Shown in pieces: positions 5,984-30,328 of a stretch of DNA of 30,328 nucleotides. Positions within the stretch are counted from its first letter, which is position 1, and every line of letters begins with the position of its first letter. The translations under genes were made by a program, and so were the position numbers. This DNA is from a virus, in the IMG/VR virus record IMGVR_UViG_3300037070_008532, positions 1 to 30,328 of that record. One strand, 5' to 3'. The notes below the pieces were generated by a model. It worked only from the letters and a program-made list of their open reading frames with translations. It searched no databases and was not told the origin of the DNA.

Positions 5984-7599
5984 CAGGCTCTGATGTATGC
6001 GTAGATGGTGAAGTTCAGCGGCGTGATGTCGATCTGCCCGCTATTGCCGACATCCAACTCGCTGACGGTGTGATAGTGGGCCGGAATGGTGCTGACGGTG
6101 CCACCGTGACTGTGCTCCCCACCAGTGATGGTGTGACCATGGTTGTAGTTCGGCCCGAGGCCGATGCCGGTGGTGGCTCTCATCGTCCAACGGATCGGCT
6201 CCACGTCGTAGGTGTGCGAGGAGTCGTTGAACATGGCGTCGAGCTTGTTCTTGCCCTCCTTGGGTGACCCGGCGAAGTCGACCTGGGCGATGATTGGAGC
6301 GGCCACCCCGAACCAGTCCATGCCCTGGTGGGTGTGGCCGGGATCGTAGACGGGATGTTCGTGGTAGCCCCCCGACACGTCGTGGGTGGAGTGCGCCCCG
6401 CTGAAAGGGATGGTGAGCGTGGGCGTAGTGGCGTCCAACGTGCTTGTCCTGCCGTAGGCGCCGCCGACCGAGTGGTTGTGCGTAGGTAGCTGGGTAGTCG
6501 TCAGTGTCAACAGGTTCCCGCTACGAGTGGTCGTCTGAGTCGGCCCCATCGAGTGTGGCGAGTTGAAGTCCACGATCATCGTGCGCCGATTGAGGTTGGG
6601 CAGCGTCAGTATCCGGTGGGGAGCGGTCCCAGTTACCGTCCCGCCAGTGGCGACATTGAAGATCCCTGGATGATCGTCCTCACTCAGTGACTCGGTGCCG
6701 TCCATCGGATACCAACCCAGTAGCCGCATGGTGGTGGGAGACTGCAAGCAAGTGATCACGGTGCCGATGGGGATGATGCCCTGAGTGGCCGACATCGAAG
6801 CGAACTGACTCCACACCCCATCGACGCAGACGTACATGTTGCCGTTGGTCACCTGGATGAAGATGTCCCCATTGACGTGAGAGGAGACATTGGGCAAGAC
6901 GGTGCCCCTGCTGAAGTTCTTCGCAGCGATGTTCCCCACGGCGGTGACATCGGCACTGGTGACGAGGTTGGTGGAGGCGATGTCACCCTTGACCTGAAGG
7001 TCGTCCTCGATCTTCAGCGTCTTGACGCCTGACCGATAGGCAAAGGTGTCGCCCTCCCAAGACGTCTTGCCATCGCCCCTGACGAGGTAGTGATTCCCCG
7101 TGTTGTTGGCGTTGCGGATCAACTCACCAGTGGTGGGGATCTTGGTCAGCAGTGCCTTGGACAGCAGCTTGCGCTTGTCCACGATGTTGTTGGCGAAGCT
7201 CGCTGATGTGGCATCGCAGTACACCGAAGCCAACACCGTCTCGTTGGCCTCGGGATCGGGGAACACCGGGTCGACGGAAGCAGACGCCGACGTGTTGAGC
7301 CTGAGCACTCCACCGTCATCCACCACGACGAGCACGAACTGACCGTTGGCCCCCGGCGTCGGCAGAGGTAGCGAGTTGCCGGTGACCAAGACGAGCTTGC
7401 CGTTGACGATGGCGGTGCCATCGCTGATCGCCACCGTCTTGGCCGACTGAGCGTTGACCTCACAACCGTCAATCACGCCCCACTGGGCGTTGGCCAGGGT
7501 GTTGAAGTCGATCTGATCTGGCTCGGCCAGGACCGGCTCGCCCACCCCGCTGGCATTCGGGATCAGGAATCCGTCATGCGTTACCGCTGGCCGTGCCAC
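5983..7599 (-). CDS. Tail fibre with collar-type domain and six His-x-His metal motifs
   Basis: 538 residues, GTG start with strong AAGGAGG site. Residues 1-150 form a beta-rich attachment region (VTHDGFLIPNASGVGEPVLA). Residues 170-270 hold fibre strands (VRGDGKTSWEG, NGDIFIQVTNGNMYVCVDGV). From about 275 there is a tail-collar-like domain: IPIGTVITCLQSPTTMRLLG, then WYPMDGTESL and LTLPNLNRRTMIVDF. The distal part carries His-x-His pairs at 374/376, 413/415, 422/424, 487/489, 496/498 and 508/510, and the protein ends TPLNFTIYAYIRA, typical for collar proteins. In T4 gp37, HxH motifs coordinate a line of iron ions in the trimeric receptor-binding tip; the same use here is inferred. It is likely a receptor-binding fibre. 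Confidence 0.88.
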   Translation of the reverse strand: MARPAVTHDGFLIPNASGVGEPVLAEPDQIDFNTLANAQWGVIDGCEVNAQSAKTVAISDGTAIVNGKLVLVTGNSLPLPTPGANGQFVLVVVDDGGVLRLNTSASASVDPVFPDPEANETVLASVYCDATSASFANNIVDKRKLLSKALLTKIPTTGELIRNANNTGNHYLVRGDGKTSWEGDTFAYRSGVKTLKIEDDLQVKGDIASTNLVTSADVTAVGNIAAKNFSRGTVLPNVSSHVNGDIFIQVTNGNMYVCVDGVWSQFASMSATQGIIPIGTVITCLQSPTTMRLLGWYPMDGTESLSEDDHPGIFNVATGGTVTGTAPHRILTLPNLNRRTMIVDFNSPHSMGPTQTTTRSGNLLTLTTTQLPTHNHSVGGAYGRTSTLDATTPTLTIPFSGAHSTHDVSGGYHEHPVYDPGHTHQGMDWFGVAAPIIAQVDFAGSPKEGKNKLDAMFNDSSHTYDVEPIRWTMRATTGIGLGPNYNHGHTITGGEHSHGGTVSTIPAHYHTVSELDVGNSGQIDITPLNFTIYAYIRA

Positions 7600-7614
7600 G
7601 GCGAGCCTCCTTCG

Positions 7615-7923
7615 TTAGCGCAACTTCCCGATGCTGTGCAGGTAGCGGGCAACTTCCACCGGCATGCGGTACTGCTTGCCCGCCTCCAACTTGGTCGAGA
7701 AGTGAGGATTCCCATGGGTGAACTCATCGATGGTGACAGCCATCCGAACGACGACCGTGCCGTCCGGGTCCAACTGCACCTGCTGCTGCTCGATGATCGG
7801 CTCGACCTCGATCTCGCGAGAGCCAAAGCCCAGGTCGGCCGGTCGAGTGACCTCGTTCTCTTCCCCCGGCATGAGTGATTCCGTGCCGGTGGGATCTTCT
7901 TGGTTCTTTGTCCTTGTGGCCAC
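7615..7923 (-). CDS. Small structural protein of unknown function
   Basis: 102 residues, GTG start with AAGGAG about 9 bases upstream. The first 35 residues are polar and probably disordered. The rest has a VQLDPDGTVVVRMAVTIDEF strand segment and a C-terminal helix MPVEVARYLHSIGKLR, which resembles endings of phage neck or head-tail connector proteins. It lies between the capsid decoration gene and the tail fibre, where completion or connector genes are expected. I do not recognise a named family, and 'connector' is only a context guess. Confidence 0.8.
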   Translation of the reverse strand: MATRTKNQEDPTGTESLMPGEENEVTRPADLGFGSREIEVEPIIEQQQVQLDPDGTVVVRMAVTIDEFTHGNPHFSTKLEAGKQYRMPVEVARYLHSIGKLR

Positions 7924-7962
7924 GATGGGTGCTCCTTAGTCGTGTATCGAACGGTGCCGAGA

Positions 7963-8499
7963 CTACGCCTCGAAGTCCTCCAGCCAGGTGATCAACGTGA
8001 CCCTGGCCTTGCCTTCGATCTCGGCGTCGTAGACATCCTGGGCCAAGTCGGGGTGCTCGGTGACGTACGCCTCGACCTCGTCCACCGTGTGGGCAGCCGG
8101 GTCGAAGCCGATGGGCACTCCTTCACCGTCGCCCTCTTCGGGTGGTGCCCCCATCCGCAACGTCGGGGCAGCGCCGGTCGCAGCCGGGACCACCCAGGTG
8201 GGTGACTGGGCGACGTTCTGGTACGTCAGGGTGACGGTGCGGTTGCCGTCTGCACCAGAGAAGACGACGTCCAACGTCGGCCCCAGGTTGAGGGTGGTGG
8301 CGCCGCTGGCCGGGGTGCCGGTCGTTGGCGTGTAGGCCCAGTCGTAGTCGGCAGCGACAGCGCTGGAGTACAGCGCCGGGTTGGCCTTGAAGACCCAGTG
8401 CATGCCGTTGGCGGCGTCAGCCGTGGCAAGACCGGTGGTGACGCCGATGACGCCCTTGGACCCGAAGGTGTTGGGGCCGTGGACAGCGACGATGGACAT
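7963..8499 (-). CDS. Probable head decoration protein with Ig/PKD-like domain
   Basis: 178 residues. Residues about 35-105 form an Ig/PKD-like beta-sandwich (TTLNLGPTLDVVFSGADGNR, then TVTLTYQNV). The C-terminus, VDEVEAYVTEHPDLAQDVYD then AEIEGKARVTLITWL, is the 'V.eV.ayv..hPd.A..v.daE..gkaR.TLI' helical ending that recurs in actinophage head and head-tail proteins. It directly follows the major capsid protein gene, the usual place for a decoration protein. The ribosome site is GGAGG, inside GGAGGTATCGCC next to the ATG. Between the capsid gene and this one lies a GC-rich hairpin. Function comes from domain type and position. Confidence 0.8.
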   Translation of the reverse strand: MSIVAVHGPNTFGSKGVIGVTTGLATADAANGMHWVFKANPALYSSAVAADYDWAYTPTTGTPASGATTLNLGPTLDVVFSGADGNRTVTLTYQNVAQSPTWVVPAATGAAPTLRMGAPPEEGDGEGVPIGFDPAAHTVDEVEAYVTEHPDLAQDVYDAEIEGKARVTLITWLEDFEA

Positions 8500-8523
8500 G
8501 GCGATACCTCCGTATCGATCAGT

Positions 8524-8554
8524 GGGGGAGAGGCGACATGATCACCCCTCCCCC
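8524..8554 (-). terminator. GC-rich hairpin between capsid and decoration genes
   Basis: Left arm 8524-8533 and right arm 8545-8554 pair over 10 positions with a single mismatch (GGGGGAG pairs with CTCCCCC), with an 11-base loop. On the minus strand no T-run follows, so it may be a weak terminator, an attenuator lowering expression below the capsid gene, or an RNA-stability stem. Confidence 0.5.
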
Positions 8555-8578
8555 GATCACCAGGTTGGGTGCGATCCC

Positions 8579-9940
8579 TCAGTTGGTGATGATCTTGACG
8601 ACCGAGGACTCGGTGATGACACCCCAGCCCCAGATCGAGTACCACGCCAGAGCGTGCTCACGGCCGAAGTCGAGCACCCCGCCATCGCGGAGTTCGACCG
8701 GCAGCGAGATGGCATGACCGAAGGCGTTGTCGCCCAGCATCATCGCCTCGTACACCGAAGTCGACGGACCCCACGGCTGGCCCCACCCGGGGGTGGCGAC
8801 GGCGAGCGGGTAGTCGTTCACGGACCCCGGAGGGGTGTCGGGCGTTGGCGACGTGCCGTCGACCGGCTGGGTGATGTTGGCGTACGGGTTGCCGCCCGAA
8901 CCGGGAGCCAGGTCGGTCGACAGGCCGAGGTTGGCGCCACGCCAGTCGACGGTGTCGTTGGGGGCGTTGGTGACCGCGGCGCCGGGGAGCGTCGGGAACG
9001 GGTCGGTCACATCGGTCACCGACGACGGGCCGGTGATCTGCGTCGTCTCGATGAACACCACGTCGTTGAGACGGCCGATTTCCCCGAGCATGAAGTTGCC
9101 GGGGGCGGCATACTTCGTGACTTCGATCCATTCCGGGGTATCACGGAGCCGTCGTCCCTGGTGGGGGTGGATGAAACACACGTATGTCTCACCGAGGCGG
9201 GGCACGTTCTTCGACGCGAGCACCTCGACGGCGTCCTTGACGCTGTGCGGGGTGAGCATGTACCAGTTGGCCGGGGTGCCCGCAGCCGCGTTGACGGCTG
9301 TGTAGTTGGCTGCCGGGGTACCAGGCTCGTAGACGCCGTAGCCGACGTTGATGGCCGCTGGCTTCTGGTAACCGAACACGACGCTTGACGCCCGGGAGAG
9401 TTGGTACCTCGCCTGGTTGTCCATGTAGAGCGCCATGTTGCGACCCAGAAGTCGGCTGGCCGACGCCATGATGTCATCGAACGAAGCGTTGAGCAGCAGT
9501 TCAGACACCGCCACAGCGAAGCCCTGCTCGGCCACCGTGATGGCGTACTGCTGGGCCGAGATCGCATGGGTCTTCATGCGAACGCCTTCCACCAACGGAC
9601 CTGCCGGGATGGGCAGATTGTTGTAGCGGAGGAAGTTTACGGTGAGTCCCGGCATGGTGCCGAGTTCCGTCTTCTTCACGGCGAACTGCTCGAACCGCAG
9701 CACGGGCATCGACTGGAACAGGATCTCCTTGGACCAGATGGTCTGGATCGCCGGTCCCATCATCGTGGTTCCGGTTGTGATACCTGCGCCGTATCCGGCT
9801 CCAGTGTTGTCTACACCGTAGGGACCGTCGTAGCCGACAGCCGGTGTGTAGTTGGAGAAATCTCCTCCGGTAGCGATTCTTGTCGTACCGGTGATACCAG
9901 ATACAACAGGAAGCTCGCCGCCAAGACCTGCTCCAGGCAT
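8579..9940 (-). CDS. Major capsid protein, N4-gp56-like (HK97 fold)
   Basis: 453 residues. From about residue 80 it follows the N4-gp56 capsid family: VNFLRYNNLPIPAGPLVEGV, then ISAQQYAITVAEQGFAVAVS with SELLLNASFDDIMASASRLL, GRNMALYMDNQARYQL, and the C-terminal YEAMMLGDNAFGHAISLP and ALAWYSIWGWGVITESSVV. The first 55 residues are Gly/Thr-rich. A linker at about 330-390 is rich in Pro, Gly and Thr and may be an extra surface loop. The start has AAGGAG 9 bases upstream. The gene follows the scaffold gene after 18 bases, the usual order. It should build the icosahedral shell. Confidence 0.92.
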   Translation of the reverse strand: MPGAGLGGELPVVSGITGTTRIATGGDFSNYTPAVGYDGPYGVDNTGAGYGAGITTGTTMMGPAIQTIWSKEILFQSMPVLRFEQFAVKKTELGTMPGLTVNFLRYNNLPIPAGPLVEGVRMKTHAISAQQYAITVAEQGFAVAVSELLLNASFDDIMASASRLLGRNMALYMDNQARYQLSRASSVVFGYQKPAAINVGYGVYEPGTPAANYTAVNAAAGTPANWYMLTPHSVKDAVEVLASKNVPRLGETYVCFIHPHQGRRLRDTPEWIEVTKYAAPGNFMLGEIGRLNDVVFIETTQITGPSSVTDVTDPFPTLPGAAVTNAPNDTVDWRGANLGLSTDLAPGSGGNPYANITQPVDGTSPTPDTPPGSVNDYPLAVATPGWGQPWGPSTSVYEAMMLGDNAFGHAISLPVELRDGGVLDFGREHALAWYSIWGWGVITESSVVKIITN

Positions 9941-10893: not shown

Positions 10894-11409
10894 TCACCGA
10901 TGCCACTTCCCCGCCCAGATCGCATCCTTGATGAACTGGCGCCCGCTGCTGACCTCGTCGGTGTTGAGGCGGGCACCTTGCCTCCAGTCCCTGTGTGCAA
11001 GCTGCGGAGTCATGAAGGTCATGCTGTTCGTCACCCCGGTAGGGGCGCTCCCAGTGACCAATCCGCGCCCCTGGAGGCCACGGACCAACTTCGATGAGTG
11101 TTCCGATAGATCCCTATCGGGCATGAGCTTGGATCCCTCGGCCAGAGCCTGCTGGGCGGCGATCCCAATCGTCGTCATGGCCGCTGCGCTGTGGCCCCGG
11201 GCGAACTTCATCTCCGACGCCGTGTGGGGTACCGGCCCCTCGTCCTCGTCCCACTCGTAACCAGTCTCCGGGTCACGGTGGGAGATGTGCAGGCCACCGA
11301 TCTCTTCCTCACCCTTGTAGACCCGATAGCTGGTCTTGTCGTAGTCGCTCTGCCGGTGGTACTGGTACTTGCCGCTCTGGGCCTGAGAGACGTGGTCACT
11401 TGCCGCCAC
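10894..11409 (-). CDS. Tandem paralogue 3, possible GNAT-like fold
   Basis: 171 residues, GTG start, with GGGAGACACGCC just before it inside the end of the upstream gene. Third member of a tandem triplet: it starts AASDHVSQAQSGKYQYHRQ, has YKGEEEIGGLHISH in the middle, DRDLSEHSSKLVRGLQGRGL before the end, and NTDEVSSGRQFIKD near the C-terminus. The middle resembles a GNAT acetyltransferase core (strand, helix, then 'l.pS.dLSehSsrLv.kLqgRGLv'). The region where the acetyl-CoA loop would be reads FARGHSAAAMTTIGIA, without a clear R/QxxGxG/A. Activity is therefore doubtful and the fold is inferred. It is the most diverged member. It overlaps its upstream paralogue by 14 bases. Confidence 0.82.
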   Translation of the reverse strand: MAASDHVSQAQSGKYQYHRQSDYDKTSYRVYKGEEEIGGLHISHRDPETGYEWDEDEGPVPHTASEMKFARGHSAAAMTTIGIAAQQALAEGSKLMPDRDLSEHSSKLVRGLQGRGLVTGSAPTGVTNSMTFMTPQLAHRDWRQGARLNTDEVSSGRQFIKDAIWAGKWHR

Positions 11410-11890
11410 GGCGTGTCTCCCTCAATTGCTGGCGCATGTGGTTGCGGCCAAGGCTGACCGTCTCAGTGTTCAGTCGCCGCCCTTCTCGCCGGTTCTCGGG
11501 GATGGTGGCGTTGTAGCTACGGAACTCGATGTCGTTGGACGCCTCCGACTCAGCCGACCCGGTGACCAGACCACGCCCCTGGAGCTTGCGGACCAACCGA
11601 GAGGAATGCTCAGAGAGGTCGGTGGACGGCTGAAGCTCCATCCCGTACGCAGACATCTCGCGCTGGGCGATACCAATCATCGTCGGAACGATGTGCCGGT
11701 GCCTCGGGTCCACGCCCATGAAGTAGACGTTGGCCGTCCTGTCGCTGTCGGGGAGGACGGTCATCGTCCCAGCCATCTTGTCGCCCTTGTAGACGTTGAT
11801 ACCCCTGGCGTCGTTGGTGTAGTCCCCACCCTCCATGTGATACTCGTACTTGCCAGTCTGAGCCTTGGAGACGTGGTCACTGGCGCTCAC
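11396..11890 (-). CDS. Tandem paralogue 2, possible GNAT-like fold
   Basis: 164 residues, GTG start preceded by AAGGAG. Same plan as its neighbours: SASDHVSKAQTGKYEYHMEG, YKGDKMAGTMTVLP, VDPRHRHIVPTMIGIAQREM, STDLSEHSSRLVRKLQGRGL, and NTETVSLGRNHMRQQL at the C-terminus. The HRHIVPTMIGIA stretch lies where a GNAT protein has its acetyl-CoA loop but lacks the usual glycines. Its C-terminal codons contain the ribosome site of the next paralogue, so the three are translationally chained with identical 14-base overlaps. It sits between portal and scaffold, a place where minor head proteins are common. Confidence 0.83.
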   Translation of the reverse strand: MSASDHVSKAQTGKYEYHMEGGDYTNDARGINVYKGDKMAGTMTVLPDSDRTANVYFMGVDPRHRHIVPTMIGIAQREMSAYGMELQPSTDLSEHSSRLVRKLQGRGLVTGSAESEASNDIEFRSYNATIPENRREGRRLNTETVSLGRNHMRQQLRETRRGGK

Positions 11891-12392
11891 GGCGCGTCTC
11901 CTTCAACTGCTGACGCATGAACTTGCGCCCGTGGCTGACCTCCTCGGTGTTGAGCCGGTTCCCCTTACGCAGGTGTTCCGGGGTATAGACAGGACCACCG
12001 AAGCCGATGTCGTTGGACACGCCGCTCTCTCGGTTCTCGGTGACCAACCCTCGCCCCTGGAGCTTCTGTACCAACCGGGACGAGTGCTCGGAGAGGTTGG
12101 CCGAAGGGACCAGCCTGGTGCCCTCGTAGTTCTCCATGTGGTTGTGCATGACGCCGATCATCGTCGGGACGATGTGACGGTGTCCGGGAGCAACCGACAT
12201 GCCGCCGACTCTCGCCACCGGTTCGTCAAGAGGCTCGTCGTTCTCGTCGTAGTCGTCGGGGTAGACCCCCATGTTCCCGACACGATGCTCACCTTTGTAA
12301 ACGTTGAGATACTTGGCACCAGACCAGTCATGCTGGAGGTGATACTGGTACCGGCCGCTTTGGTCGGTGGAGAGGTGGTCGCTAGCGCTCAC
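11877..12392 (-). CDS. Tandem paralogue 1, possible GNAT-like fold
   Basis: 171 residues, GTG start overlapping the portal stop as GTGA. First transcribed member of the triplet. It reads SASDHLSTDQSGRYQYHLQH, YKGEHRVGNMGVYP, a short acidic insert DDYDENDEPLDEP, APGHRHIVPTMIGVMHNHM, SANLSEHSSRLVQKLQGRGL, and NTEEVSHGRKFMRQQL. Conservation of both ends with a variable middle suggests gene duplication followed by specialisation. Function unknown. A minor virion protein or degenerate acetyltransferase are the two readings I would test. Confidence 0.83.
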   Translation of the reverse strand: MSASDHLSTDQSGRYQYHLQHDWSGAKYLNVYKGEHRVGNMGVYPDDYDENDEPLDEPVARVGGMSVAPGHRHIVPTMIGVMHNHMENYEGTRLVPSANLSEHSSRLVQKLQGRGLVTENRESGVSNDIGFGGPVYTPEHLRKGNRLNTEEVSHGRKFMRQQLKETRRERQ

Positions 12393-18845: not shown

Positions 18846-20426
18846 TCACCGGTAGAACGGGCTGTCGATCTGCTCCACGGTCGGCACCGTCTCCATCATC
18901 GTGCAGGCACAAGCCAGCGCCGCCGAGTCGACGTAGTCCTCATGGGCCTCCCGCTCGTTGGGCGCCTGGATCAGGAGATACTGCCCCTGCATCACCTTCT
19001 CGGCGTCGACCATCTGCTGGCGGAAGCGGCGCCATACACGGGTACGGCGGGCCTTGGAGTGACCTGGGTAGACGAGCATCTGCCGCTGGATGAGTTGGAT
19101 CAGGTGCTTCCAGCGCTCGCTCTGGTTCTTGGAGTCCGACGAGTAGGGGATCACCTCGCAGCGGCTGCCCATCAGACGGGCCATCCGGCTGGCCACCGCC
19201 GACCCCATGCCCTGGGCGTCGACCCCGCAGAAGGCGATGTCATAGGGGTCGAGGAAGTCCATCATCTGGAAGTACTGCTCCTCCCAGTCGGTGTTGTGGA
19301 TCTCCAGCCAGTTGAGGATCCGGTGCTCTCGGTAGCCAGCGGCGTCGGGGAAATCCCAATCAACCCACATGACCGTAACGACAGTTGAATCCTTGACACG
19401 GGCAGGGTCGATTCCCACCACACACGGTGAACGGTGCCACCCTCGGACGAGTTGCATCGAAGGGTCAGCAAGGTAATCAAGGTCGTCCTCCGTGACGAGC
19501 ATGCCCCGTTCGAGCATCCATTTGAGCCGGTAGCTCATCTGGTACTCGTCGGAGTCCTCACCGAGCCGGATCTTCTCCTTGTCGATGAACTTCTTGTAGT
19601 TGGGGTTGTACTTGCAGACGGTGCGCTCATCGAACTCGAAGTGGTTCGGACGGGCACGACGGCTGGTGAAGCGGCGCTTGTTGAGGTTGATCGCCTTGTA
19701 GAAGTCGCCCTTGTGATACCCGGGGGTGCCGATCTTGACGATGGTCCCGGCGTAGAAGGCGAGCATTGGGTGGATGCTCTTGCGGATCACCGTCTCGTCG
19801 GCGTCCTGGCACTCATCGATGATGATGATGTGATACGACGCACCTTCGATCTTGGCTCGGGGGTTGGCAGTCTGGCGACGGCAGTAGGAGCCTGAGGCCA
19901 GACGTACGACCTTGGACTTACCCTCCACCCGGTCATCGATCTCGGGGTCGTAGAGCACGGCCTCTGCGATCTCGCTGGTGAGGCGGCTGACGATGCGGCT
20001 GAAGACCAGGTCGGCCTGGTCGTCCACCGGGGCGAAGATGCCGACCCACACGCCTCGCTTGAACTTCTCCAGAATGGGATAGCTCTTGGCCAACTTGGGG
20101 AACAGCACCATGCAGCCCGCCAGAGTGGTAGCCACCGTCTCTGACTTTCCGCTCTGGCGGGCCAGCAGACCGGTGATCTCCTCGGCGTCGCCCAGGATCA
20201 GGGACTCGATGATGCGGTATGACAATTGCCGCTGGTAGGGGAACATCTGGAACCCGGCCAGTTCCTCGCAGAAGATGATCGTGCGTTCGATCAACTGGTT
20301 GAGGAAGTCGGCCATCTCCTGGTCGAGTTCCTCGAATCCCGGATCGACCTCATCAGCATCGTCCTCGATCTCTTCTTCCAGCAGTTCTTCGGGATCCGGC
20401 CCGTAGCCGAGATCGATGATCGTCAT
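18846..20426 (-). CDS. terL: Terminase large subunit
   Basis: 526 residues. ATPase: Walker A ARQSGKS at 89-95, Walker B IIIIDECQD at 200-208, coupling motif KIGTPGY at about 231. Nuclease of RNase H type: VVGIDPARVKDSTVV with Asp340, FCGVDAQGMGSA with Asp403, and Asp500 in EDYVDSAALA. The first 35 residues are very acidic. This motor cuts concatemeric DNA and pumps it through the portal into the prohead. No small terminase can be named nearby. The start lies opposite a plus-strand gene and upstream minus-strand genes end in a hairpin, so a promoter in 20427-20519 is likely. Confidence 0.95.
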   Translation of the reverse strand: MTIIDLGYGPDPEELLEEEIEDDADEVDPGFEELDQEMADFLNQLIERTIIFCEELAGFQMFPYQRQLSYRIIESLILGDAEEITGLLARQSGKSETVATTLAGCMVLFPKLAKSYPILEKFKRGVWVGIFAPVDDQADLVFSRIVSRLTSEIAEAVLYDPEIDDRVEGKSKVVRLASGSYCRRQTANPRAKIEGASYHIIIIDECQDADETVIRKSIHPMLAFYAGTIVKIGTPGYHKGDFYKAINLNKRRFTSRRARPNHFEFDERTVCKYNPNYKKFIDKEKIRLGEDSDEYQMSYRLKWMLERGMLVTEDDLDYLADPSMQLVRGWHRSPCVVGIDPARVKDSTVVTVMWVDWDFPDAAGYREHRILNWLEIHNTDWEEQYFQMMDFLDPYDIAFCGVDAQGMGSAVASRMARLMGSRCEVIPYSSDSKNQSERWKHLIQLIQRQMLVYPGHSKARRTRVWRRFRQQMVDAEKVMQGQYLLIQAPNEREAHEDYVDSAALACACTMMETVPTVEQIDSPFYR

Positions 20427-23299: not shown

Positions 23300-23475
23300 T
23301 GGTTCTCCTCTCGCAACTGGATGACGGCTCGTAGCTGGCTGACGAAGTTCGGATCGTTGAGGATCATGGCCATCGCTTGACCCGTTGCCTCGGTGACCGG
23401 CTTCACCAGTTCAGGTGGCACCAGTGTAGTGACATAACGCTCGACGTAGCTAGCGAGAAAGTCGCCGGGGTTCAC
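23059..23475 (-). CDS. Small helical protein with long out-of-frame overlap
   Basis: GTG start at 23475 overlaps the upstream stop as GTGA. The first 62 residues are convincing: NPGDFLASYVERYVTTLVPP, ELVKPVTEATGQAMAMILND, FVSQLRAVIQLREENQWLR (coiled-coil end). The frame then runs on for about 240 bases over the start of the zinc-site gene, with a basic Ser/Arg/Pro composition (VPRKRVTPSSKVSQARKASP) like a shadow frame. Either the overlap is truly translated as a basic tail, or a -1 frameshift would fuse it to the next gene, or the true end was lost. I annotate the whole frame, sure only of the N-terminal half. Confidence 0.6.
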   Translation of the reverse strand: MNPGDFLASYVERYVTTLVPPELVKPVTEATGQAMAMILNDPNFVSQLRAVIQLREENQWLRAQVVHLTSLLPSGCASTGVPRKRVTPSSKVSQARKASPRPRGNTSQTSPAKRVRIGGTASRPSKAAFMKGFRQAKR

Positions 23476-23723
23476 ACCCCTAGCTTCTCACGAAGTCCAT
23501 CAGCCATCCCGGGCAAGCTCACCTGGGACGGCCTGAACCAGCCAGCGCCCATACCCCCGTATGTCATGGGGTCATCGAACACCACCTTCAGGATCCTCCC
23601 CGCCGCCTTGGTGGGCACCACCCGTGTCAGGGTGCCAGGTAGGACTTGGTCCCCGAAGTGGACATCGACCGCCATGTCGATGAAGCGGTTGAGAGGATGA
23701 GGATGTACCTGCGTGTGAGCCAT
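23472..23723 (-). CDS. Small protein, unknown
   Basis: 83 residues, HTQVHPHPLNRFIDMAVDVH at the N-terminus, LPGTLTRVVPTKAAGRILKV in a beta-rich centre, then FDDPMTYGGMGAGWFRPSQV. It looks like a small beta-barrel. Ribosome site is weak (GGTAGTATCTCAGT before the ATG) and the start follows the Thr-rich secreted gene by 20 bases. Its stop overlaps the next GTG. No family recognised. Confidence 0.78.
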   Translation of the reverse strand: MAHTQVHPHPLNRFIDMAVDVHFGDQVLPGTLTRVVPTKAAGRILKVVFDDPMTYGGMGAGWFRPSQVSLPGMADGLREKLGV

Positions 23724-23743: not shown

Positions 23744-25726
23744 TCACAACGTTGGGGGCAACACCACCGTTGTTGTGGTCGTTGTCGGGGGAGGCCCGAA
23801 CGGCCCCGGTGGGTTGGCGCAAGCGCTGCTCTCGGGCGGGTACGTCACCAGCACCGGGCCAGCGGTCGGGTTGACCTCGTACGTCAGGAAGATGCCCTCA
23901 CGGAGGAACTCGTCCGAAGGATCCTGGATCCAGAACCCGTCGTCAGTGAGTATCCATCCGGGTACATCATCAATGCTGCCATCCGGGTTAACGGAAGTGC
24001 CGGGGTAGAGGATGTCCACCGTTGCTCCGGGTTGGTAGACCAAGTCCTGAGTAGATACCACGTTGCCATTGATGTCCCTCATGGTGAGTATGCCCGTTAC
24101 CCCAGCGAGGCTGGGGAAGCCGGGTGTCTGGAAGGTAATGCGGATCGTTGGCACCTCACGGACGCAGACGGTGCCCGCTGCGCCAAAGGTGAACGTCTCA
24201 GGCAGGGTCGTCGTCGTGGACGTAGTTGTCGTAGGAGCCGTGGTCGTCGTCGTGGTTGAAGTAGGGCCGGTGGTTGTCGTGGTGCTCGATGTAGTCGGCA
24301 ATGTTGTCGTAGACGACGTGGTTGTCGAGGTCGAGGACGGGGAGGTGGTCGAGGTCGATGACGTGCTCCCCGGCTGAGTCGTCGTCGTCGTTGAACTGGG
24401 GGCCGTAGTCGTGCTCGCCGGGACCGTGGTCGATGACGTGCTTGACGAGGTCGTGGAAGTGCTCGGCGTCGTCGTTGTCGAGGTGGAGGTAGTCGGTGCC
24501 ACCGTCGTGCTCGTCGTCGTGGTCGATGGGGGCAGGGTAGTGGTAGTCGAGGTGCTTGTCGTCGGGGCCACCGTCGTCGTCGTCGTCGTAGACGAGGTTG
24601 TAGGCGACGTAGTGGAGGTCGTCGTTGAGGGCGCGGTGGTCGTAGATGTCGATGATGTCGTTGTACCCGGTGTCGTGGTGGTCGTAGTCGTGGCTGGCGG
24701 GCAGTCGGGCGGCAGAGTCACCACCGCCGTGGCCGTCTCGCCCGAGTTGGCGTAGGTCAGCGTCAGCGGGGTCGTCAGGCTTGCTGGGTACGGGAAGGTG
24801 ACGGTCTGGCCCGACTGGAAGACCAGCGGGTTGCCCGAGTAGTCGGTGCCGTCCGAGAAGGTCAGGAGGCCGGGGACACCGTTGAGGTCGGGCCGGTTGC
24901 CAAATGTGATCGAGATCTCGGGCAGGTTGTCGGGGCCGCAGAAGGCGAAGTCGTCAATCCCCAGCAGGCTCGGCTTGGGCAACGTGGTCGTCGTCTGACC
25001 AGGCACGGTCGAGGTGGTAGACGACGTGGTCGTTGTACTCGATGACGTAGTCGTCGGTGAAGTCGTAGTGGTGGACGATGACGTAGTCGTCGTGGTCGGA
25101 GGCGTTGGCAGGCATTCACTCACATCCGGTTCTGGTTGGCCGGTGTCGAAGGCGATCACCCGGCTGCGGCCCTGGGCGTCAGCGAAGAACGAGCCGATCA
25201 CGCCGTCCCAGTCGGGGATGGCGTTGACGCTGACCGAGATCGGGTTCTGACCGGTCTGCAACCGCTCGTCAACCCCCGGCGTCCCCACGAACTTGCACAC
25301 GAACACCTTCTTCGGCGCCACCGTCGTGGTCGTCAGAGCGACCGTCGTCGTAGTTGTCGAGGTCGTAGGCGTCGTCGTAGTGCTGGAGGGGGCCACCGTT
25401 GACGAGGTAGCAGGTGTCGTAGACGTGGATGACGGAGCCGTCGTGGTAGAAGACGCCGCCGTAGTGGTCGTGTCCTGGGCGGAAGTCGTCGTCGTGTACT
25501 TGGGGATGGTCGAGGTGGGCGTGACCGTGTTGCGCGTCGTGGTACTCGGGTATGACGGCTCCGTTGTCGTTGTGTCGTGACCTGGGATCGTGTACCACGG
25601 TGGTTCGTGCTGGATCGTCGTTGTGGTGCTGTCCTCGCCGCCTCCGGTGGGATGTGTTGCCAAGACCGGAGCAGCGCTCACGACCAGGGCACTGAGTGTG
25701 ATAGTGAGCGCTGCCCGGAACTTCAT
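23744..25726 (-). CDS. Secreted Thr-rich multidomain surface protein
   Basis: 660 residues, AGGA before the ATG. Signal peptide 1-23 (MKFRAALTITLSALVVSAAP, cut after VLA). Then Thr/Ser/Pro linkers at about 51-138, 209-250 and 344-510 separating three globular parts: 140-206 (VFVCKFVGTPGVDERLQTGQ, NPISVSVNAIPDWDG), 253-342 (LLGIDDFAFCGPDNLPEISI) and 511-640 (TVCVREVPTIRITFQTPGFP; VPGWILTDDGFWIQDPSDEF). The first and third resemble domains I know from actinobacterial, notably Acidimicrobiia, secreted proteins. No LPXTG or membrane anchor at the end (VVLPPTL). Host-like cargo in a phage; the linkers are possible glycosylation sites. Role unproven. Confidence 0.88.
   Translation of the reverse strand: MKFRAALTITLSALVVSAAPVLATHPTGGGEDSTTTTIQHEPPWYTIPGHDTTTTEPSYPSTTTRNTVTPTSTIPKYTTTTSAQDTTTTAASSTTTAPSSTSTTPATSSTVAPSSTTTTPTTSTTTTTVALTTTTVAPKKVFVCKFVGTPGVDERLQTGQNPISVSVNAIPDWDGVIGSFFADAQGRSRVIAFDTGQPEPDVSECLPTPPTTTTTSSSTTTTSPTTTSSSTTTTSSTTSTVPGQTTTTLPKPSLLGIDDFAFCGPDNLPEISITFGNRPDLNGVPGLLTFSDGTDYSGNPLVFQSGQTVTFPYPASLTTPLTLTYANSGETATAVVTLPPDCPPATTTTTTTPGTTTSSTSTTTAPSTTTSTTSPTTSSTTTTTTVAPTTSTSTTTTLPPSTTTTSTTVAPTTSTSTTTTPSTSTTSSSTSSTTVPASTTTAPSSTTTTTQPGSTSSTSTTSPSSTSTTTSSTTTLPTTSSTTTTTGPTSTTTTTTAPTTTTSTTTTLPETFTFGAAGTVCVREVPTIRITFQTPGFPSLAGVTGILTMRDINGNVVSTQDLVYQPGATVDILYPGTSVNPDGSIDDVPGWILTDDGFWIQDPSDEFLREGIFLTYEVNPTAGPVLVTYPPESSACANPPGPFGPPPTTTTTTVVLPPTL
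24197..24697 (-). repeat. Low-complexity Thr/Ser codon tract
   Basis: Residues 344-510 of the 660-residue protein are nearly all Thr and Ser with Pro, Ala and Val, encoded by repeated ACG/ACC/ACT and TCG codons (GTCGTCGTC on the plus strand). Similar shorter tracts are at about 25313-25576 and 24977-25102. They could vary in length by replication slippage and they create long Val-rich false frames on the plus strand. Confidence 0.85.
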
Positions 25727-25736
25727 GGCCGGGATC

Positions 25737-26348
25737 CTAATCCACCACGTTGAAGGTGCGGAGGAGTGTCTCCAACTCGGTCGGATCGGCAGACTGAGCC
25801 TGCATCACCGCCGTGAAGGAGGCGTCGGCCGGTGAAGCCACGACCATGTTCCACGTCATGTGGAGCGGCCCACAATCCGTACCGATCTGGATGACGCCGA
25901 CGAACACCGGATCGTCGTACTCCTTGAAGGCGATGGTGTCGCAACCGCCCGTCAACCCGTACTCGTCCATGAGGGTCAACGGGTCGGGAGCGAACGGGAC
26001 GGTGAAATAAGACACTCCCGGCACTTCGAAGGACGTGTAGAACTTCTGGATGTCGGGCGCCGCCACGATGGAGGGCCGTCCCTCGGCGGCGGTGCCCTCC
26101 TCGGGGATGAACGCCATCGTGTTGACGTCCTGCCAGGCATCTGGCACGGCGATCACGATGGTGTGCGAGTCGTCCACCAAAGGCATGTATCCCGGTGGAA
26201 TGGGGATGGTGGTGGTTGGGCCACTGGGCACGGTGGTCGTCACTCCTGTCGTCGTGGTGGTCGGTTGGGTGGGGAGCGTCGTGACGGGCGGGGGCGGGGC
26301 GGTGGTGGCCGCTGCTGCGGCCACCACCAGTGCTGCGAGGATGAACAT
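25737..26348 (-). CDS. Small secreted protein with Thr linker and extracellular domain
   Basis: 203 residues from the ATG at 26348; a longer in-frame start would lie inside the upstream gene. N-terminus MFILAALVVAAAAATTA is a short signal peptide, weak in positive charge. Residues 18-52 are Pro/Thr linker. Residues 58-203 (HTIVIAVPDAWQDVNTMAFI, IQKFYTSFEVPGVSYFTVPF, LMDEYGLTGGCDTIAFKEYD, FVGVIQIGTDCGP, LETLLRTFNVVD) form a domain with Cys136 and Cys159 likely bridged. This domain I know from Acidimicrobiia secreted proteins, where it is often fused to proteases or kinases. It may be an immune-like bait, a binding module or host cargo; function unknown. Ends 10 bases before the next start. Confidence 0.84.
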   Translation of the reverse strand: MFILAALVVAAAAATTAPPPPVTTLPTQPTTTTTGVTTTVPSGPTTTIPIPPGYMPLVDDSHTIVIAVPDAWQDVNTMAFIPEEGTAAEGRPSIVAAPDIQKFYTSFEVPGVSYFTVPFAPDPLTLMDEYGLTGGCDTIAFKEYDDPVFVGVIQIGTDCGPLHMTWNMVVASPADASFTAVMQAQSADPTELETLLRTFNVVD

Positions 26349-26362
26349 GTCGTGTCTTTCTG

Positions 26363-28351
26363 TTAGCAGGTGGCTGGAAGGACCATCCCGGGCGTGAAGC
26401 CAGGGGGCAGGGACACCGTGACCACCGGATCGGCCGGAACCGTGGTGGGCGGTGCTGGGCAAGTCGTGGTGGGCGCTACGACGGTCGTTGGAGGCGATGT
26501 CGTCGTCGTGCCCACCACGACGGTCGTGGTCGTCGTGACGACCGTGGTCGGTGTAGTCGGCGGGACAACGGTAGTCGTCGTCACTACGGGCGGGTCCGTG
26601 GTTGGGGGCGGCGGCTCCAAGCAGTCGATGTCATCGGCGTTGATCCGCTGGCAGACCACGACAAGGTTGTCCTGGTTGGCTGCTTCGGCGTCACCGGCTG
26701 CGATGACGTTGACGAAGTCGCCCGCTTGCAGTCCATTGACCTGGTTGCCCTGGGTCACCTGGGATTGGGCCGTGTTGTTGCCAGAGTTGGCGTTGGCGAG
26801 GCCGAGACTCACGACGATGGTCACCTGGCGCATGTTGACCTGCGCTCCGGTGGCGTCACCCATCGTGGTGTCGAGTCCCTCGAAGGTGGCGTCAAGATGG
26901 AGCAAGATGCCCTGGAAAGGCACGTCGATACCCCTGGACGTCGCCGCCATGACCTCACCGTTGGCCGATTCGTGGACCATGGCGAGCATCTCGGACATGA
27001 ATGCCGCCATCATCACGATGGACGAGGCGTCCTCAGCGCTGAGTGTGGCTACGCCGCCTCCGAGGGTGTTTCCTCCGGTGTTCGCGCCAGCGGCTCCCAC
27101 GTTGGCAACAAGCACTTGTTGGACGATGTCAACCACACCATCTCCTGACGCAGCCGCCATAGCAACTTGACGAACGAACGTGTCCGAGTCGTTGCCGGTA
27201 GCGGTGGCGTCTCCGGTGGAGATACTGCCCACCGCGGGGCCGTAGCCGTAGCTCTGCAAGAGCGCAGGCAGAAGCATGGCAAAGAGGTCTTGGGCGTAGG
27301 CATTGTCATCTCCCGGATCCGCCGAGAGCAAGCCGCCTGCTACTCCCGAAATGTCGTTGATACCTGAGTTAGCCAGAGCAAAACCGACGTTGAGAACGGT
27401 GGCTCGCTGGGTGACGTTGAGTTGTGCTGTGTCTTCTCCAAGGAGTTGGGCGTACTGACTGATGTCGGTGGTTGAGAGGTTGCCAGTTGCGTTGGCGTTG
27501 CCAGCGGCGATGGCACCGCCAGAACCTCCAGCAGTCCCTGCACCGGCCACACCGTTGAGGCCGCTATTGGCCGTACCGACACCCATCCAGAGGGAGATGG
27601 CGAGTTGGTTGGCATGGGCGTCGGTGTTCTCATCGCCGTTCTCCCTCGCTGCCTGGGTGATGTACTGGCCGATGTCGAGGCCGGTGGCGTCAGCGTCACC
27701 AGTGGTGATACCAGCGGTGATCCCGCCCCCACCAGGCGTCGAAGCGATGCCGTTGTAGCCAGAGTTGGCCAGAGCGACACCCAAGTTGATGATCAGAGCG
27801 ACCTGGAGCACGTTGGCAACTGCCTGGTCCTGTACCGTGATATCAGCGCCCTGGGTGACAACATTGGCGTCCTGAGATCCCACGGCGGTGGCATCTCCGG
27901 TCAGGATGTCGGTTGTCGCCTGGGGCGCACCCGGCTGGTTGGCGTTGTCCACCTCATGGTTGTCGCCCGAGTTGGCGTTAGCAACTACCGTCGCTGTGAT
28001 GACTGCCGACTGGTCGTTGTTGACCTGATTGGGGTTGGACGTGCTGACCACAGCGGTGTCCTGAACCTGGACAACCTGCTCGGTGCCGGTAGGAGGCTCG
28101 CTAGCCGTCTCCGTAACCGGTGCTTCGGTGACCGGAGCCTCTGGTGCTCCAGTAGACGGAGCAACCGTCTCCGGGTCGGTGACGATGACCTGGATGGTCG
28201 TCGGAGCCTCGGTGGTCGGAGCCGCCGTCGTGGGCGCCTCTGTCGTTGCTGGAGGGTCCGTTGGTGGAGTACTGGCGTCCACCGCCGCCGCGCTGATGAG
28301 GGTCAAAGCCCCCGCCGTGATGACTGTCGCCATCCCCTTGATCCGCCGCAT
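26363..28351 (-). CDS. Secreted protein with six ANSG.N / GDATA repeats
   Basis: 662 residues, AAGGA 6 bases before the ATG. Signal peptide 1-26 (ending AAAVDA), Thr/Pro linker to about 90, repeat region 95-570, Pro/Thr linker 580-635, C-terminal PPGFTPGMVLPATC. Repeats: ANSG/ANTG.N at 126, 195, 261, 327, 423 and 521; GDATA-like at 152, 218, 284, 380, 498 and 553. Each unit combines a QxxxxxNVG-type strand segment with a TGDATA turn, suggesting a beta-solenoid. I know such repeats from actinobacterial surface proteins and similar ones from candidate-phyla bacteria. No anchor. It stands between two other secreted genes. Whether it acts on the host surface or the virion is open. Confidence 0.86.
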   Translation of the reverse strand: MRRIKGMATVITAGALTLISAAAVDASTPPTDPPATTEAPTTAAPTTEAPTTIQVIVTDPETVAPSTGAPEAPVTEAPVTETASEPPTGTEQVVQVQDTAVVSTSNPNQVNNDQSAVITATVVANANSGDNHEVDNANQPGAPQATTDILTGDATAVGSQDANVVTQGADITVQDQAVANVLQVALIINLGVALANSGYNGIASTPGGGGITAGITTGDADATGLDIGQYITQAARENGDENTDAHANQLAISLWMGVGTANSGLNGVAGAGTAGGSGGAIAAGNANATGNLSTTDISQYAQLLGEDTAQLNVTQRATVLNVGFALANSGINDISGVAGGLLSADPGDDNAYAQDLFAMLLPALLQSYGYGPAVGSISTGDATATGNDSDTFVRQVAMAAASGDGVVDIVQQVLVANVGAAGANTGGNTLGGGVATLSAEDASSIVMMAAFMSEMLAMVHESANGEVMAATSRGIDVPFQGILLHLDATFEGLDTTMGDATGAQVNMRQVTIVVSLGLANANSGNNTAQSQVTQGNQVNGLQAGDFVNVIAAGDAEAANQDNLVVVCQRINADDIDCLEPPPPTTDPPVVTTTTVVPPTTPTTVVTTTTTVVVGTTTTSPPTTVVAPTTTCPAPPTTVPADPVVTVSLPPGFTPGMVLPATC
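26681..27976 (-). repeat. Six imperfect protein repeats (ANSG.N / GDATA)
   Basis: Unit spacing by the ANSG.N landmark is 69, 66, 66, 96 and 98 residues, so the first four are regular and the last two carry inserts. Units read e.g. LIINLGVALANSGYN, LWMGVGTANSGLN, LNVGFALANSGIN, VSLGLANANSGNN. Confidence 0.82.
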
Positions 28352-28376
28352 GTCCTTATCCGCCTCTTTCTACGAA

Positions 28377-28408
28377 GAGGGCGGGGTGGCCGAAACCACC
28401 CCGCCCTC
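28377..28408 (-). terminator. Strong hairpin between two secreted-protein genes
   Basis: GAGGGCGGGGTGG (28377-28389) and CCACCCCGCCCTC (28396-28408) form a perfect 13-bp stem with 6-base loop. It sits between the Ser/Ala-rich gene and the next gene. On the minus strand only TTCGTAG follows, so termination may be partial or the stem may protect mRNA. Confidence 0.65.
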
Positions 28409-28435
28409 GGGTTCCCTGACTCTAGGGAAGGTTGG

Positions 28436-29479
28436 TCAGCCCGCGTCGCCCGTGGCCGAAGCCGTGTCGGAAGACGTGTTGTTCTGAGTCTGGCTAACCG
28501 TGAGGGTGGCGCTGTTGGTCGCCGTCGCCGCCCCCGTGGTGATGTTGTTGCTCGCCGTCGAGGCATTCGCCCCGGCGTTGGCGTTGCCGCTGGTCGAGCC
28601 GCCACCGGCTCCACCCGTCGACTCCACCGCACCCGTGCTGCCCGCCGCCGAAGCGCCCGAGCCGCCAGAGGCCGACGACACGTCGCCGCTGGACGAATCC
28701 GTCGAGTGGGCGTCGCCGCCCTCGGACTCGCTCTCCGACTCCTGGTTGGCGTCGTTGGACTGGCTGACCGAGTTGGAGGCGTTGTTGCCACCGCTGTTGG
28801 CCGACGCGTCCTGCGACACGTAGACGTTGGCGTCGGCGTCCTGGTGGACGCTGCTCTCGACCTCGGCGCTGGCCGCGGTCGGGGTGCTCGACGCTGACGC
28901 CGAAGAGGCTCCACCCGCCGAAGCGGACGACGCCGTGGTGGCTGCGCCACCGGTCGCCGTGGCCGAGTTGGTGGACGAGTTGGTCTGCGACTGGGTAACC
29001 CCACCGCCGACCGTGTTGCCCGCCGTAGCGGCGCCAGCGGCGATGCCGTTGGTGGCCCCGCTGGTGTTGCCCCCGATGTTGCCGTTGGTGGAACCGGACG
29101 TACCGGCCGCTCCACCCGTCGCCTTGACGCTGCCGCCCGAGTTGGCAGCCGAAGCGCCCGTGGCCGAAGCCGAGGACACGTCGCCCTCGCTGCGGTCGGT
29201 CGAGTCGGCGTCGCCGCCCTCGCTGGACGAGTCGCTGTCCTGGTTGACGTCGTTGCTCTGGCTGATGGAGTTGTACTCCACGTTGTCGCCCGTGTTGGTG
29301 TACGCCTTCTGGCACACCTCGACGGTGACGTCAGCGTCCTGGCTGACGTGGCTGTCGACTTCGGCCTCCGTAGCCGGGTCGTCGCTGTGCTCCTCGGCCG
29401 AGGCGATGCCGCCCCATCCGAGGGTGAGGCCCGCCGCCGCCAAGGTTGCGGTGACGATCCGCCGTTGTGATCGCTTCAT
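28436..29479 (-). CDS. Secreted Ser/Ala/Gly/Asn-rich repeat protein, curlin-like spacing
   Basis: 347 residues, AGGAGAG before the ATG. Signal peptide 1-28 (MKRSQRRIVTATLAAAGLTL, cut after ASA). The mature protein is almost only Ser, Ala, Gly, Thr, Asn, Asp and Gln, with a single Cys. It is made of two similar halves (about 39-176 and 205-345), each starting AEV(D/E)S..QDAD and holding NSISQSNDVNQ or NSVSQSNDANQ, then SEGGDA.STD and GDVSSAS. The G.N.....SQSND.NQ spacing recalls curlin repeats (S.....Q.G..N.....Q), but length and order differ. A fibrous, matrix-like or amyloid-like secreted protein is an inference. It is followed by a strong hairpin. Confidence 0.86.
   Translation of the reverse strand: MKRSQRRIVTATLAAAGLTLGWGGIASAEEHSDDPATEAEVDSHVSQDADVTVEVCQKAYTNTGDNVEYNSISQSNDVNQDSDSSSEGGDADSTDRSEGDVSSASATGASAANSGGSVKATGGAAGTSGSTNGNIGGNTSGATNGIAAGAATAGNTVGGGVTQSQTNSSTNSATATGGAATTASSASAGGASSASASSTPTAASAEVESSVHQDADANVYVSQDASANSGGNNASNSVSQSNDANQESESESEGGDAHSTDSSSGDVSSASGGSGASAAGSTGAVESTGGAGGGSTSGNANAGANASTASNNITTGAATATNSATLTVSQTQNNTSSDTASATGDAG
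28445..29365 (-). repeat. Internal duplication of the Ser/Ala-rich protein
   Basis: First copy about 28952-29365, second about 28445-28867. Paired landmarks: AEVDSHVSQDADVTV with AEVESSVHQDADANV; NSISQSNDVNQ with NSVSQSNDANQ; SEGGDADSTD with SEGGDAHSTD; VTQSQTNSST with VSQTQNNTSS. DNA is similarly biased and may recombine. Confidence 0.85.
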
Positions 29480-29561: not shown

Positions 29562-29855
29562 CTAAACGTCTGGCAACTTGTGGCCTTCATCAGCGGCCAA
29601 AGCCGCCTGGCCCTCGAAGTAGTCAGACACCCGGATCAACCCCTCCCGCCTGTCAACATCCTCCGTCAGCGTCGCCGTGATGGCGATGCAGGCGGCGTAC
29701 GTTGCAAGTGCTGGTGAAGCAAACACGTCTTGTCGACGTATCACAACGGCGTCAGGCAGTTCGTCATCAACTCGGAATGTGACAAACCCGTCTGTCACAG
29801 AGATTGCGTTGTCACGCTTGAAGACTGCGTACTTGTCGTCGCTGTCGCCCACCAC
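29562..29855 (-). CDS. Small protein, unknown
   Basis: 97 residues. GTG start at 29855 (a second GTG follows) with GAGGAG upstream. It reads DSDDKYAVFKRDNAISVTDG, FVTFRVDDELPDAVVIRRQD, VFASPALATYAACIAITATL, then a helical end. The '..AVVIR.qDvFa..aL..Ya..i..a..l' pattern looks like small actinophage proteins. No function known. It precedes the secreted cassette with an 82-base gap to the next start. Confidence 0.78.
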   Translation of the reverse strand: MVGDSDDKYAVFKRDNAISVTDGFVTFRVDDELPDAVVIRRQDVFASPALATYAACIAITATLTEDVDRREGLIRVSDYFEGQAALAADEGHKLPDV

Positions 29856-29882
29856 TAACTCCTCGGCTCGGGAATGGAGATA

Positions 29883-30086
29883 CTACACACATCCCGGAGG
29901 CAGTTGTCCAGAGAAACTTCCCGTGTAGGCAAATCTCACTCTGACCAGGGCTTCTTCCCTCGTCAGACCCCTCTGCATGAGGGTTGCGATGACCGCCTGC
30001 CATACATCGGGATAGTCGAGTACGGCTAGGTTTGGGAGAACGTGGTATCTCTTCTCGTTGGGAGCATCTGTTGCTAGCGTTGTCAT
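29883..30086 (-). CDS. Small protein, unknown
   Basis: 67 residues from the ATG at 30086, with GGAGAG 8 bases upstream overlapping the previous stop; a GTG five codons earlier is in frame but inside the upstream gene. Sequence TTLATDAPNEKRYHVLPNLA, VLDYPDVWQAVIATLMQRGL, TREEALVRVRFAYTGSFSGQ. Helical, globular by eye. No family recognised. Confidence 0.72.
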   Translation of the reverse strand: MTTLATDAPNEKRYHVLPNLAVLDYPDVWQAVIATLMQRGLTREEALVRVRFAYTGSFSGQLPPGCV

Positions 30087-30090
30087 AACG

Positions 30091-30328
30091 TCACTCTCCA
30101 CGATCCCGGACCACGCGTGCCCTGAGCGCTTCGCCCTTCAACAGCGCAACGGTGGCCCGGTGGTGACCGGAGAGGATGTCCCAGCGCCCCGAAGGGTGGG
30201 CGTAGACGACGGGATACTGGTTCCCGACATCATGTTGATCGGCTGCTGTTCGCCCAGTCTTCTCGTAAGCGTCACCCATGTAGTGGCCGACGTGCTCTGA
30301 GAGGACGCTGGGTTGTGTGGCGTGCAGT
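30091..30328 (-). CDS. ParB/sulfiredoxin-like domain protein (5' end outside window)
   Basis: The frame stays open to the window edge; an internal ATG at 30279 exists, but the sequence before it (TQPSVLSEHVGHYM) reads as coding, so the true start is upstream. The domain shows YPVVYAHPSGRWDILSGHHR then ATVALLKGEALRARVVRD, with the 'l.GHHR..a....G...a.V' core of ParB-like nuclease and sulfiredoxin folds, frequent in actinophages next to head genes. ParB-type CTPase boxes are not visible. Function unknown. Confidence 0.75.
   Translation of the reverse strand, partial: LHATQPSVLSEHVGHYMGDAYEKTGRTAADQHDVGNQYPVVYAHPSGRWDILSGHHRATVALLKGEALRARVVRDRGE

Follow-up and report, generated by a model that had tools for sequence, protein, structure and literature searches.

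A phage-borne cassette of putative secreted surface proteins, and anchored and clipped sortase-type C-termini among its relatives

Results

Gene content of the cassette

The window analyzed here is the whole 30,328-base virus record IMGVR_UViG_3300037070_008532 (positions 1 to 30,328). Its minus strand carries a tailed-phage structural module composed of a LamG-type protein, a major capsid protein, a portal and a large terminase. The capsid protein is 48-68% identical to those of the Streptomyces phages BRock, GiJojo and LuckySocke and the terminase 47-48%, and by these two proteins BRock and GiJojo are the nearest isolated relatives of the window phage. BRock is described as a virulent 112 kb myovirus (PMC7453282). 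The LamG-type protein (3-4457; 1,485 aa, with Laminin_G_3 domains), encoded near the window end, is probably a tail or receptor-binding protein. Three consecutive small genes adjoining the portal gene (10894-12392; 171, 164 and 171 aa) represent a local triplication and share the N-terminal start V[AS]ASDH[VL]S..Q[ST]G.Y.YH.

An earlier note, made from the letters alone, had described four neighbouring minus-strand genes at 23744-29479. They are present there as described, and they are real genes with homologues in other phage contigs. The features are as follows.

18846..20426, minus strand: large terminase, which groups the phage near the Streptomyces phages BRock and GiJojo
23472..23723, minus strand: flanking gene u83, conserved in sibling phages; the other boundary of the inserted block
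23744-25726, minus strand: gene A, 660 aa, with a signal peptide, Thr/Ser-rich linkers, three small domains and the C-terminus LPPTL-stop
25106..25315, minus strand: A domain 1 (A-dom1, VFVCKFVGTPGVDERLQTGQNPISV type), identified from the sequence
24695..24970, minus strand: A domain 2 (ISITFGNRPDLNG type), placed elsewhere within A of contig G002
23810..24193, minus strand: A domain 3 (A-dom3), which defines the phage family; beta-rich AlphaFold2 model, pLDDT 85
23747..23761, minus strand: clipped sortase motif of A (LPPTL), immediately 5' of the TGA stop
25737-26348, minus strand: gene B, 203 aa, with a hydrophobic N-terminus and an actinobacterial accessory domain
26363-28351, minus strand: gene C, 662 aa, with a signal peptide, repeats, a Pro/Thr tail and the C-terminus LPATC-stop
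26366..26380, minus strand: clipped sortase motif of C (LPATC)
28436-29479, minus strand: gene D, 347 aa, with a signal peptide and two copies of a Ser/Gly/Asn/Gln-rich stretch
29562..29855, minus strand: flanking gene E, conserved in sibling phages
30091..30327, minus strand: flanking gene G, which extends past the window end and is conserved in other phages of the group

Gene starts were assigned with a simple gene caller. For B, the ATG at 26348 with an AGAAAG-type ribosome site upstream was taken as the start, and a longer TTG open reading frame from 26462 was set aside. The signal peptides that the earlier note had given to all four products are borne out by hydropathy and sequence for A, C and D, whose N-termini combine a charged n-region with a hydrophobic stretch and an A-x-A-like end. 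In B, only the hydrophobic stretch is present, so that its export signal is weaker than those of the other three. Threonine, serine and proline make up 55% of A, and the repeats of C are of the TGDAxATGNxS...NxGxAxANSGxN kind. The cassette genes are under purifying selection; dN/dS in the window comparisons is approximately 0.17-0.21 for C, 0.20-0.22 for B and 0.37-0.41 for D.

Domain homology and folds

No anchor helix or enzyme family was found in the products of A to D with Pfam, PHROGs, NCBIfam and PADLOC, in agreement with the earlier observation that none has an anchor or enzyme motif, and no PADLOC model of known anti-phage defence proteins matches them. The statement about anchors is correct as far as the helix is concerned, but the C-termini LPPTL-stop of A and LPATC-stop of C correspond to the first part of a sortase signal.

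The Actinobacteria-type domains proposed for the cassette could be traced for B only. It matches the C-terminal accessory domain of the Rhodococcus S1C serine protease WP_208722155 (26% over 188 aa), but lacks the protease domain that the Rhodococcus protein has. The model of A-dom3 has no PDB match at E<=1e-3; its weak top structural matches, below significance, are GH2 enzyme domains, fn3 domains, monobodies and FlgD. Sequence searches against solved structures gave nothing convincing, and the AlphaFold2 model of C is unusable (pLDDT 31). A curlin-like functional amyloid was considered for C and D, and neither matches the curated curli repeat model of Pfam. Profile comparison detects no homology between C and D, and therefore their shared repeat style cannot be taken as such.

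Among 50,697 phage records there is no match for C, B, A-dom1 or A-dom3, which agrees with the view that tailed phages seldom carry such a set, although other phages that do carry it are described below. A-dom3 is absent from all INPHARED records, and GiJojo lacks it, unlike the window phage. In 84,980 bacterial and archaeal genomes (one pattern-limited scan each), A-dom3 and C are likewise unmatched, so that the term host-like finds no support for these two. Plasmids gave no match for A-dom1, A-dom3 or C and one weak match for B.

Spread and synteny of the cassette

A search of related phages for the block, as the earlier note had suggested, recovered all four genes in two further uncultivated phages, the IMG/VR contigs L001/G001 (111 kb) and L002/G002 (37 kb), with identities of 58-78%. 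Between the window and these contigs, C is 75-78% identical, B 67-75% and D 66-75%. Their terminases are 49-52% identical to that of the window, and the cassette lies in the opposite orientation relative to the terminase. The order D-C-B is kept, D immediately preceding C in each of the five contigs with C; A adjoins B in the window, but is found on the other side of D in G001 and G002. An opposite-strand gene between A and D of G001 (L001:5576-6283) resembles a small methyltransferase; the window cassette lacks a counterpart.

The contrast between terminases of about 50% identity and C proteins of 75-78%, together with the opposite orientation, implies either separate gains of the block or its exchange between phage lineages. 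In the records of phages with more similar terminases (G005 78%, G015 77%, G006 73%, G010 73%), C and B are lacking; some of these records are fragments, as are most contigs, and such an absence is thus weak evidence. A is also mobile alone, since the A proteins of L111 and L114 are 80% identical over 303 aa and the terminases 48%. For D, a scan of viral contigs returned no confirmed match even though D is present in L001 and L002, so that its spread is undercounted by that scan.

The position of the block can be seen by comparison with L117, a sibling phage with a terminase identity of 85%. The window reads G-F-E-[D-C-B-A]-u83-u184-u90-u133-u81-terminase, and L117 reads A ... G-F-E-u184-u90-u133-u81-terminase. 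Two phage genes thus flank the block, and less than 1 kb lies at this place in L117. Genes E, F and G (29562-30327), beyond D, are kept in several sibling phages. A bacterial chromosomal island at a contig join, which the earlier note had named as the finding that would overturn its proposal, or another assembly join, could be brought forward for the resemblance of B to an accessory domain of an actinobacterial protease. Conservation of the flanking genes in sibling phages, on either side of the block, argues that the cassette is not a contig join, and the same genes are embedded in a phage contig of 111 kb that also has capsid and terminase genes. We consider an island or join to have practically no likelihood.

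C-termini of the A and C families

The A family, defined by A-dom3, comprises 33 distinct proteins from 35 viral contigs. Almost all members have an N-terminal export signal and are Thr-rich, and their C-termini fall into two classes only. A complete sortase signal is present in 15 of the 33 proteins, i.e. an LPxTG-like motif (LPPTG, LPHTG, LPSTG and LPFTG among others) after which a helix and, in almost every case, a basic tail follow. This class includes the A proteins of L115, L116, L118, L120, L124, L125, L127 and others; an example from G006 is LPPTGSNSGTYLAIAALALGSGLALFSVGRKRRRA. The remaining 18, the window protein included, are clipped and have neither helix nor tail. Seventeen of them stop exactly one residue past LPxT (e.g. 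LPPTL, LPPTR, LPATA), and the eighteenth ends in LVPTE.

Counted from the C-terminus, the clipped ends (n = 18) have L at -5 in 18, P at -4 in 17, P at -3 in 15 and T at -2 in 18, and positions -6 and -1 are unconstrained (2.9 and 2.2 bits). T is followed by R, A, L, E, V or G. Synonymous variation is seen in the codons of L, P and T. The conservation is not circular, because all helix-less members of the family lie in the clipped set; however, 11 of the 18, including the window protein, form one all-clipped sub-branch and are not independent, so that part of the conservation reflects shared descent. The A tree requires seven state changes, at least three of which are forced by well-supported branches. 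A single clade of clipped forms is rejected (p-AU 1.9e-5) for a group that was named after first sight of the tree and on a tree of 127 columns. Judged from this tree, the clipped form of A arose more than once.

The same end is found outside the A family. C ends in LPATC in the window and LPLTC in G001/G002, and in two of its five relatives, those of G033 and G036, it is anchored (LAVSG/LAFTG followed by a helix and a basic end). A is also anchored in G033 and G036, and the two proteins share their state, clipped or anchored, in 5/5 contigs carrying both. By its sequence, an Rpf-like transglycosylase downstream of A in L113 (9826-10203; PF06737, 6e-29), which ends in SLPVTR-stop, is a third protein family with the clipped tail. 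Among 1933 called genes, a C-terminal LPxTx occurs in 16, all of them A, C or one Rpf-like protein, and each of five permuted motifs occurs 0-1 times.

Programmed frameshifting or readthrough into a hidden anchor was considered and rejected, because there is no general helix in any frame past the clipped stops; for the window A, none was found in any downstream reading frame. Small membrane open reading frames follow the clipped stop in L108 and L126 and are likely separate genes.

Several neighbours of A were recorded. In L108, L112, L121 and L133, A adjoins an amidase- or GH25-type endolysin gene, which hints, at four loci, at late expression near lysis. In L112, the gene directly upstream of A and the GH25 endolysin (6986-9487) encodes a putative virion protein with apiosidase-like glycosidase and collagenase-type binding domains. 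A TROVE/Ro60 vWA RNA-binding protein gene (L118:7437-9029) lies directly upstream of an anchored A, and gp30 of GiJojo is annotated as a Ro-like RNA binding protein.

Discussion

Sortase signals, whose short LPxT tag serves bacteria for fixing proteins to the cell wall, are textbook biology. The families of A and C include complete signals, and the clipped LPxT end is conserved and recurrent, which leads us to an explanation through the sortase pathway. The clipped motifs in A and C, read together with the complete ones in their relatives, point to wall attachment or to this pathway over a generic secreted decoy. We tentatively propose, with not quite an even chance of being right, a cassette of secreted surface proteins, in anchored and clipped versions, through which the phage makes use of the host sortase pathway. 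In this proposal, the infected cell's own sortase would attach anchored versions to its wall. Clipped versions, having no stop-transfer helix, would exit from the cell, and their LPxT-X terminus may still be a ligand or minimal substrate of sortase. The enzyme would then fix the protein to the wall from the outer side, whether on the dying cell, its debris or neighbouring cells. The benefit is the part of which we are least sure: by analogy with T5 Llp, a first guess is a masked or changed wall surface, which would spare the progeny from being lost to infected cells and debris; aggregation of host cells would be the second.

Precedent for attachment from outside comes from S. aureus, in which sortase A covalently builds exogenous K(FITC)LPETG-amide into the wall without helix or tail, and the authors suggest that these two elements are indispensable only when a protein is exported from within the cell (PMC3929722). 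Like the clipped tails, this substrate has one residue after T and no helix or tail, but it is an amide rather than a free acid. The exogenous LPETG-amide substrate was not incorporated by S. agalactiae, E. faecalis and S. cohnii (PMC3929722). Other observations count against a sortase reading: G follows T in only 1/18 clipped A proteins, no phage sortase was found among 21 contigs, and B and D are without an LPxT-type end. Known sortases prefer G after T.

An extension of the proposal, which we regard as unlikely, is sorting in trans, in which the sortases of neighbouring or lysing cells would bolt the LPxT-X proteins on and the phage would decorate uninfected cells. The anchored and clipped states would then represent a cis/trans switch that was gained several times.

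Soluble secreted adhesins or matrix proteins, acting in aggregation, biofilm or as decoys, with the LPxT end as a relic of an anchored ancestor, would account for the Thr-rich linkers and small beta domains and for the NSGxN/Asn-Gln repeats, all typical of surface stalks. In C. difficile, a sortase substrate whose whole sorting signal is deleted ends up in the supernatant (PMC5569036), which agrees with such secretion. A relic, however, would be expected to decay, yet L, P and T are retained despite synonymous substitution, with their immediate neighbours on either side unconstrained, and three unrelated proteins share the same end. This explanation seems to us doubtful, if somewhat less so than sorting in trans.

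The variable last residue of clipped A, seldom a cleavable G, and the endolysin genes beside A at four loci could also fit a sortase pseudo-substrate, released in bulk near lysis, that would occupy the host sortase and lower surface-protein display, with a weakened wall surface or removal of receptors as the outcome. The pentapeptide LPRDA (LPxxA-type) is described as an SrtA inhibitor with a cited IC50 of 10.6 uM (PMC9774600). Large multidomain Thr-rich proteins would nevertheless be a costly display of five residues, and their domains are themselves conserved; moreover, an LPETG peptide left native substrate display unreduced in S. aureus growth (PMC3929722). We judge a pseudo-substrate distinctly unlikely, more so than sorting in trans.

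A place in the virion, as tail or head decoration rather than on the host surface, is suggested by the putative tail/virion genes that A adjoins in L108 and L112 and by the location of the window cassette near the terminase. Export signals in nearly all A members and complete membrane anchors in 15 of the 33 render it highly improbable.

Returning to the sortase-pathway proposal, our literature searches for LPXTG proteins encoded by phages or for truncated sorting signals returned nothing that matches this arrangement; a conserved, repeatedly evolved signal cut one residue past LPxT in secreted phage proteins is unmatched in the literature searched. Should the tail act as a ligand or substrate of sortase, phages would have a means of altering cell wall surfaces, perhaps including those of cells not entered by them, and LPxT-X might be worth trying as a minimal tag for ligation. 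For other actinophages it gives a one-line sequence rule, namely an exported protein ending in LPxT-X.

Comparison with known systems

With the LPXTG/LAXTG sortase substrates of Gram-positives, the cassette shares a Sec-type N-terminus, a Pro/Thr-rich linker and a C-terminal LPxT-like motif. It differs in that A and C of the window lack the G (LPPTL and LPATC, in which the first four positions agree) as well as the helix and basic tail, and in that the genes are phage-borne; relatives of both proteins in other phages have the complete signal. The role proposed for the cassette may resemble that of Llp, an exported envelope protein of the lytic phage T5. Llp is a small superinfection-exclusion lipoprotein; it binds FhuA and belongs to a Gram-negative system (PMC9586334).
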